Source: Geoalkalibacter halelectricus (GTDB lineage: Bacteria; Desulfobacterota; Desulfuromonadia; Desulfuromonadales; Geoalkalibacteraceae). Taken from it: a stretch of DNA of 64,000 nucleotides. Positions 2,277 through 3,539 of this stretch are shown here, one piece after another (the first letter of the stretch is position 1; every line of letters begins with the position of its first letter). The translations under genes were made by a program, and so were the position numbers. Under the pieces are notes generated by a model. That model ran no database searches. It was not told the DNA's origin and saw only the letters and a list, made by a program, of their open reading frames with translations. The stretch covers positions 620,001 through 684,000 of the forward strand of contig NZ_CP092109.1 of assembly GCF_025263685.1 (NCBI RefSeq), written 5' to 3'.

Positions 2277-3422
2277 TCAATCCTCCTTTACCACCTTGAT
2301 GTCTTCATCCTTGACCACCTCTTTGGTCTCATGCTTGTCGCCCTTGCGAAAGCCGCTGACCACTCCGTGGGCGCCGAAGGCCAGGGCCGTGGCCGCCGCC
2401 AGCCCCAAGCCGATGCGGTCGGCCGTGGCCTCGATGCCGAAGCCCGGAACCTGCGGCAGCCTCCGGTAGAAAGGCGTCATGGTGTCCCAGAAATGCGGCT
2501 CCGAGCAGCCGATGCAGCCATGCCCCGCCATCACCGGCCAACTGGTCTCGTTGTAGCGCACCGTCGGGCAGTTGTGGAAAGTCTGCGGCCCCTTGCAGCC
2601 GAGTTTGTACAGGCACCAGCCGTCGCGGTGACCCCGATCGCCGAAAGTCTCGGCGTACTGCCCGGCGTCGAAATGGCCGCGCCGCTCGCAATTGTCGTGA
2701 ATACGCTTGCCATAGGCAAAGCGCGGCCGGCCGAAGCGATCCGTCGCCGGCAGGGAGCCGAAAGTCAAAAAGTGAACGATGGTCGCGGTGAGATTTTCCG
2801 CGTTGAGGGGACAGCCCGGCAGATTGATCACCGTGGCGCTCGGCACCGCCTCCTTCACTGAAATCGAGCCGCTCGGATTGGGCGCCGCCGCCGGAATACC
2901 GCCGTAGGTGGCGCAAGTACCCACCGCGATGGTCGCCAGGGCGTTGCCGCACACCTTGCGCGCGATGGCCAGGGAACTCTCCCCCGCCACCGTGCAGTAC
3001 ACCCCGCCGTCACCCGCCGCCACCGCGCCTTCCACCACCGCGATGTACTTGCCCTTGTGCCGCTCCATGGCCTGATGCTTGGCCTCCTCGGCCTGATGGC
3101 CGGCCGCCGCCATGACCACCTCGGAATACTCCAGCGAGATGTAATCCAGAATCAGATCCGCCGCGCTCGGCGCGCGCGCCCTCAGCAGCGCCTCGGTATC
3201 GCCGCTGCAACTCTGAAACTCCAGCCAGATCACCGAAGGCCGATCATCGGCATCGAGAGCCGCGGCGATCTGCGGCACAAAGCTCATGGGCAGCGCCATG
3301 GTCGCCGCCATGGTCGTGCAGAACTTGAGAAAGTCGCGCCGGTCAATGCCGCGCGCTTCCCAGCGCTCCAGGGTTTCCTCGGGAATGCGAACTTCAGGCG
3401 GGGGGCTCTGCGGTTCCTTCAT
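2277..3422 (-). CDS. [NiFe] hydrogenase small subunit, Tat-exported
   Basis: Iron-sulfur electron-transfer subunit. It has a twin-arginine signal (RRDFLKFCTTMAA, about residues 26-38), cluster-ligand motifs GTCATYGGIPAA, LPGCPLNAENL, DNCERRGHF, GWCLYKLGCKGP and GCIGCSEPHFWD, and a hydrophobic C-terminal anchor (about residues 330-350) followed by a charged tail. The first cluster motif is FQSCSGDTEALL: the second Cys of the usual CxxC is Asp. A Cys3Asp1 proximal cluster of this kind has been described for actinobacterial-type O2-tolerant enzymes. I prefer the ATG at 3422 over the in-frame TTG at 3425 because AGGAGG lies 8 bp upstream of the ATG. It is the first gene of the operon and has a strong promoter upstream. 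Confidence 0.96.
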   Translation of the reverse strand: MKEPQSPPPEVRIPEETLERWEARGIDRRDFLKFCTTMAATMALPMSFVPQIAAALDADDRPSVIWLEFQSCSGDTEALLRARAPSAADLILDYISLEYSEVVMAAAGHQAEEAKHQAMERHKGKYIAVVEGAVAAGDGGVYCTVAGESSLAIARKVCGNALATIAVGTCATYGGIPAAAPNPSGSISVKEAVPSATVINLPGCPLNAENLTATIVHFLTFGSLPATDRFGRPRFAYGKRIHDNCERRGHFDAGQYAETFGDRGHRDGWCLYKLGCKGPQTFHNCPTVRYNETSWPVMAGHGCIGCSEPHFWDTMTPFYRRLPQVPGFGIEATADRIGLGLAAATALAFGAHGVVSGFRKGDKHETKEVVKDEDIKVVKED

Positions 3423-3539
3423 CAACTCGGCCTCCTTTCAAAGACGGCACAGGGATGGATGAAAACAAACAGCAAGCTATGTCAAAAAATGGTGACGAAA
3501 ACGAGGGCGGGACGGTGCAGCAAAAAACTAAATAACATC

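Follow-up and report, generated by a model that had tools for sequence, protein, structure and literature searches.

Group 1f of the [NiFe] hydrogenases is described as polyphyletic and poorly studied, with roles ranging from oxidative-stress defense to the use of H2 at sub-atmospheric levels (passage in PMC6896113). Replacement of a Cys by Asn or Asp has been recorded for the 1f enzymes of Roseiflexus, Geobacter and Frankia (passage in PMC5364354), and a listing within PMC4070099, in which the cluster carries a question mark, gives Cys-to-Asp at proximal position 2 for Geobacter and Cys-to-Asn for Nostoc. The Hya enzyme of Geobacter sulfurreducens, a 1f hydrogenase, is encoded by GSU0120–0123, with HyaL as GSU0122 (passages in PMC10582990 and PMC7894505). 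Group 1h/5 is set apart, in the portion of PMC5364354 that treats it, by other L1 and L2 motifs and by the absence of both a Tat signal and a C-terminal anchor.

The stretch analyzed here (the window; 64,000 nucleotides, positions 620001–684000 of a single-contig 4.13 Mb genome) begins within a hydrogenase operon on the (−) strand. A HyaS-like, Tat-exported [NiFe]-hydrogenase small subunit is encoded at 2277–3422 (−), as judged from the translation, a profile match to TIGR00391 (442.6 bits; cut-off 179.5) and alignment to solved enzymes. The full open reading frame spans 2277–3425 (−) and is opened by a TTG at 3425, but the ATG at 3422, with AAGGAGG upstream, is the likelier start; ligand numbers given below count from the TTG and are lowered by one for the ATG. 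A twin-arginine motif, RRDFLKF, lies at 3321–3341 (−), and the profile search matched the Tat-signal family TIGR01409 (23.6 bits; cut-off 16.7). Toward the other end of the translation, a hydrophobic stretch at 2376–2435 (−), picked out by eye, is a probable C-terminal membrane anchor.

The proximal-cluster motif reads C-S-G-D (3198–3209 (−)), encoded by TGC AGC GGC GAT from 3209 down to 3198, with the Asp codon at 3198–3200. An earlier note on this DNA had pointed out this motif, and alignments bear it out: in 1h2a and in E. coli Hyd-2 (6ehq plus three other entries), the residue opposite the Asp is the second Cys of C-T-G-C. By ligand alignment, the third and fourth proximal ligands are Cys171 (2913–2915 (−)) and Cys205 (2811–2813 (−), in GCPLN). 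The ligands of the other two clusters are intact, with H243, C246, C271 and C277 at the distal cluster and C286, P297, C304 and C307 at the medial one, where the Pro indicates the 3Fe-4S type.

The large subunit, HyaL-like and 570 residues long, is encoded at 560–2272 (−) and matches PF00374 with 777.6 bits. Its best PDB sequence match, from a search made with the large subunit alone, is chain 3myr_B (729 bits). The nickel ligands are ordinary cysteines, C-G-V-C in L1 (2081–2092 (−), read from the frame) and C-L-A-C in L2 (617–628 (−), within SFDPCLACAVH in the translation). There is no in-frame stop, and hence no UGA at a nickel-ligand codon, the classical mark of a [NiFeSe] enzyme. A b-type cytochrome gene, cut by the window edge (2–529 (−)), lies directly downstream of the hydrogenase genes, confirming the earlier description of a Tat-exported enzyme with its own cytochrome b. 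The truncated piece scores above the cut-off of PF01292 and slightly below that of TIGR02125; the complete gene (216 aa) is found at L084:13879–14529 (−), L084 being this same locus taken from the genome with sequence past the edge. Beyond the edge, the cytochrome b gene is completed, and genes for a HycI-type maturation protease and a cytochrome c come next in the operon. The last of these (L084:12828–13517 (−)) has one CxxCH and a lipobox-like start. Adjoining the operon, at L084:8916–12747, genes for a GTP-type and an ATP-type phosphoenolpyruvate carboxykinase stand side by side.

The gene order of Geobacter Hya, which we take to be hyaSLBP, is the same small subunit–large subunit–cytochrome b–protease arrangement as in the window; a difference is the extra cytochrome c gene that follows the operon in the window genome. 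Among the 63 relatives with at least 2 kb of sequence past the large subunit, cytochrome b occurs within 2 kb downstream in all 63, the protease in 55 and a cytochrome c in 27.

To gauge how widespread the Asp is, we searched one genome from each of 84,980 species and obtained 307 relatives, of which the best 80 by similarity to the query were kept; being chosen by likeness, these describe the neighborhood of the query rather than all of group 1. The proximal position is Asp in 76 of these best 80 and Asn in the other four. The nearest relative found (L004, a Geoalkalibacter MAG, 88% identical) also reads CSGD. Since this relative shares the motif and the best 80 of 307 relatives are all D/N, a sequencing slip was rejected as the source of the Asp.

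We also built a tree of the large subunit, a check that the earlier note had called for. The tree has 80 rows and took in 29 of the 80 relative loci; ten loci from our numbered genomes were omitted as near-duplicates or for room, as were matches shorter than 300 residues. The clade that includes the window has 43 rows, 42 of them D/N and one Cys (L137), and an SH-aLRT of 89, below the starred level of 95. Hyd-1/HoxG, Hyd-2 and HofG, which we assign to subgroups 1d, 1c and 1h, respectively, all lie outside this clade, so that the placement puts the window away from 1h. The root was set by hand on HofG plus a Thermus plasmid enzyme, both long-branched, and the gene of the tree is the large subunit, not the carrier of the Asp trait. 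The tree's minimum of four state changes was left unused, inflated as it is by a long-branch paralogue (L079_1009_2451_m) that carries the label of its locus. The tree label UL1 denotes any TGA read as a residue, and is wrong for L012.

Other residues near the cluster follow the same division. The residue after the Cys-Pro of the fourth ligand, a non-Pro in the window as in nearly all of the clade, is V, L, C or M in 100 of 101 distinct D/N rows, compared to Pro in 30 of 33 Cys-type rows. This comparison leaves out HofK, L085, L086 and the Thermus row and counts L137 as Cys-type; merging was limited to identical sequences (105 to 101), and the 101 rows still contain near-duplicate genomes and two entries for the window (Q and L084). 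Asp or Asn at the proximal position is thus a trait of the clade and not a peculiarity of this genome. The finding in the window is an ordinary one, and the trait has already been published at the level of the clade.

The window enzyme is very probably a group-1f-type, Geobacter Hya-like, membrane-bound and periplasm-facing [NiFe] uptake hydrogenase linked to cytochrome b. This assignment draws on the published Geobacter statement and on the tree (clade SH-aLRT 89) rather than on HydDB. As in group 1f, a Tat signal is combined with Asp/Asn in place of a proximal Cys. The window further shares the small–large–cytochrome b–protease operon, the medial Pro of a 3Fe-4S cluster and the His/three-Cys distal ligands. 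It clusters with two Geobacter-named loci (L047 and L079), which stand in for Geobacter here; the G. sulfurreducens Hya sequence itself was not recognized among the compared loci.

Two other subgroups were considered and rejected. In the 1h enzyme HofKG of C. necator (5aa5), the small subunit reads CDGD (L139), with its Asp in the same alignment column as that of the window. To this extent the likeness to actinobacterial-type enzymes drawn in the earlier note holds; in the tree, however, Cys-type enzymes separate 1h from the clade of the window. HofKG, far from the window in the large-subunit tree, has CGICG in L1. The 1h motifs given in a passage of PMC5364354, TSRICGICGDNH for L1 and SFDPCLPCGVH for L2, differ from RFCGVCTTVH and SFDPCLACAVH in the window, and the Tat signal that 1h lacks is present, as the TIGR01409 match indicates. 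Tat signal, motifs and tree position thus exclude 1h. Because 1h is distant in the large-subunit tree, the shared Asp looks convergent and probably has separate origins. The 1d enzymes (E. coli Hyd-1 and C. necator HoxKG) are linked to cytochrome b and their operons start much like that of the window, but their 4Fe-3S cluster relies on CTCC plus an additional Cys past the third ligand, whereas the window has CSGD and a Gly at the latter site. Membership in 1d was rejected on the absence of these two extra cysteines, and a 4Fe-3S cluster is ruled out by the predicted ligand set.

Starting from the observed sequence, gene order, Asp position and clade, we propose the following working of the enzyme. 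H2 would be split at an ordinary four-cysteine NiFe site. The proximal cluster would be held by three Cys and probably by the Asp; instead of Asp ligation, one Fe could be water-ligated or the cluster could be 3Fe-4S. Electrons would pass from the proximal cluster to the medial 3Fe-4S, the His-ligated distal 4Fe-4S, the b heme and the quinone pool. A probable effect of the Asp is a changed potential at the proximal cluster; it does not provide the redox-flexible 4Fe-3S cluster of the O2-tolerant group-1d enzymes. The likely role is H2 uptake, perhaps with disposal of O2 under microoxic stress. In profile searches, the window genome gave two heme-copper oxidase matches, so electrons from H2 could reach O2; there was no match to cytochrome bd.

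The direction of the reaction could also be the reverse. We consider it quite unlikely that the enzyme normally evolves H2 to discard surplus electrons from quinol: at ordinary H2 levels menaquinol would have to drive an uphill reaction to make H2, and P297 marks the medial cluster as a high-potential 3Fe-4S one. What speaks for this direction comes from Geobacter, where Hya might turn excess reducing equivalents of the menaquinone pool into H2 and HyaL is most abundant on formate (passage in PMC7894505). H2 uptake remains our preferred reading.

The earlier note took the Asp together with the cytochrome b as a hint of O2 tolerance or high-affinity use of H2. According to this reading, which is compatible with filing the enzyme under 1f, the Asp would confer these properties by working as it does in 1h. 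The window Asp does share its column with that of HofK, and the work describing the C. necator AH structure (5aa5) reportedly ties the Asp to apparent O2 insensitivity by mutagenesis. The 1h Asp has likewise been called a possible clue to O2 tolerance (passage in PMC5364354), Geobacter Hya, and Hyb too, is cited in oxidative-stress defense (passage in PMC10582990), and group 1f includes an enzyme for sub-atmospheric H2 (passage in PMC6896113). Against this, 1h stands far off in the tree, and its export and its L1 and L2 motifs are different. Because Cys-type enzymes separate 1h from the clade (in a tree rooted on long-branched 1h), the O2 insensitivity of 1h is not simply transferable. The closest case to a counterexample is a Methylacidimicrobium strain whose small subunit has Asn at one of the four proximal ligand positions, and which in a preliminary result was inactivated above ∼0.01% dissolved O2; the passage reporting it (PMC5364354) places the enzyme near group 1b and is silent on which Cys is replaced. 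A fully O2-sensitive homologue with the same Asp was not found in the literature searched, this Asn-bearing case being the only one. The gas-channel residues V63 and L111 are the common V and L seen in 134 of 136 rows; as O2-tolerant 1d enzymes have V/L too, this weighs only against a gas-filter mechanism. When a Cys-to-Asp change was made in an already altered hydrogenase of A. macleodii, the enzyme was still active in an assay of H2 evolution only (passage in PMC4070099). Ordinary group-1 operons such as hya of E. coli and hox of C. necator contain a cytochrome b partner as well. Since the trait is general in the clade and already published, the Asp carries no special message here; taken alone it does not establish O2 tolerance, and we regard O2 tolerance or high affinity conferred by the Asp as unlikely.

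Could the Asp instead be a near-neutral historical substitution, tolerated with the cluster kept and without special physiological meaning? Asp and Asn interchange inside the clade and one member has Cys (L137), and in the A. macleodii enzyme both engineered forms, C81D and C81N, are active in H2 evolution (passage in PMC4070099). However, D/N is kept in 42 of the 43 clade members of the tree, and the other near-cluster residues that differ from Cys-type enzymes suggest a tuned site, not drift. We therefore hold near-neutrality to be possible but doubtful, and retain the view that the Asp probably adjusts the proximal cluster. Among Tat-exported hydrogenases, CxGD marks the clade consistently and has a seemingly independent counterpart in 1h, so the motif by itself is unfit for predicting O2 tolerance. 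The clade does supply natural Asp, Asn and Cys forms for probing the function of the proximal ligand.

Classical [NiFeSe] hydrogenases contain one selenocysteine (Sec), which lies in L2, and at the NiFe site one L1 ligand bridges Ni and Fe. Some large subunits of the clade seemed to start only at residue 65; in these, both L1 Cys codons are actually TGA. When 138 large-subunit frames were read with TGA as a residue, L1 was UU in five and CU in two, and L2, reachable in 103 of the 138, had two Cys in each. One such locus, L074, belongs to genome G299, and we scanned 148 genomes from the same phylum for the DNA pattern of U-G-V-U-T-T-V-H. The pattern occurred in 17 genomes and a reversed control pattern in none. 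All 17 loci (16 new matches plus L074) have an in-frame UGA at both L1 places, Cys in L2 and, directly upstream, a small subunit with D or N at the proximal position. Third bases, the only freedom that the pattern left, vary among the matches. An additional UGA occurs in some of the loci, either before the probable start or where the gene probably ends.

Across all collected loci, where TGC, TGT, TGA, TAA and TAG were sought at both places and overlapping loci counted twice, L1-TTVH occurs 137 times: 22 with TGA-TGA, four with TGC-TGA, 111 with two Cys codons and none with TAA or TAG. SelB is above the cut-off in all 17 pattern-bearing genomes and tRNA-Sec in 14, figures that cover these 17 of the 148. 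In a first set of seven UGA-bearing genomes, six have both SelB and tRNA-Sec. Counting against the Sec reading are the seventh, the genome of L083, with neither above cut-off, and the three of the 17 that have no tRNA-Sec above cut-off. The window's own genome has tRNA-Sec and SelB, though L1 of its enzyme has cysteines. A hairpin follows the second UGA in the UGA genes, in two pairing registers; because nine Cys-coding relatives also fold there (−7.0 to −18.0 kcal/mol) and the register is not single, such candidate SECIS elements are weak evidence. The case for Sec is carried by the position of the UGA, the absence of UAA and UAG, and SelB.

Based on these data, the Asp/Asn-proximal, group-1f-like clade likely includes hydrogenases with Sec at both L1 nickel ligands (U-G-V-U) and Cys in L2. 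The double-UGA loci, group-1f-like with proximal D/N, are L064, L069, L074, L083, L105/L194 and L196–L211. UGA at the second L1 Cys only (C-G-V-U) is seen in L106/L195, L191, L125/L193 and L185–L190. Since L106 lies inside the D/N clade and L125 outside, L1 Sec seems to occur in two lineages. If the double-Sec reading is true, Se would replace S in two of the four Ni ligands, one of them in the position that bridges Ni and Fe; this would be a [NiFeSe] site of a new kind, joined to a non-cysteine proximal cluster, and the protection of hydrogenases against O2 by Se would become newly testable. In a 2026 review on the selenoproteins of prokaryotes, UxxC is the form stated for the alpha subunits of hydrogenases, which we take as L2 (passage in PMC13188914). 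We found no report of Sec in L1 in the open-licence literature, which is not proof of novelty.

A looser pattern with one UGA matched 141 of 395 genomes, mostly by chance. Among the one-UGA places listed, 11 were examined, nine because a known small subunit lies alongside and two (G365 and G375) on the strength of their sequence; ten proved to be in-frame UGA L1, and L192 (G365) did not. L012 was rejected as a Sec frame, as its TAG and TGA lie outside L1 and it looks damaged or misread. A scan of viral contigs gave no match to the double-UGA pattern.

The window genome encodes two other hydrogenase pairs, L085 and L086, whose small subunits read CTGC and CSGC, respectively, and both have Cys at the medial Pro position. 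In L086:6554–10925 (G000:C1, about 1927554–1931925), the large subunit stops at DPCIACAVH, without the C-terminal extension for processing. After the small-subunit gene there comes one for a methyl-accepting chemotaxis protein whose N-terminal part contains a CxxCH, which may point to H2-sensing chemotaxis. A further arrangement was seen at L135:5327–10398 (−), where one large subunit is flanked on both sides by CTGD small subunits on the same strand.
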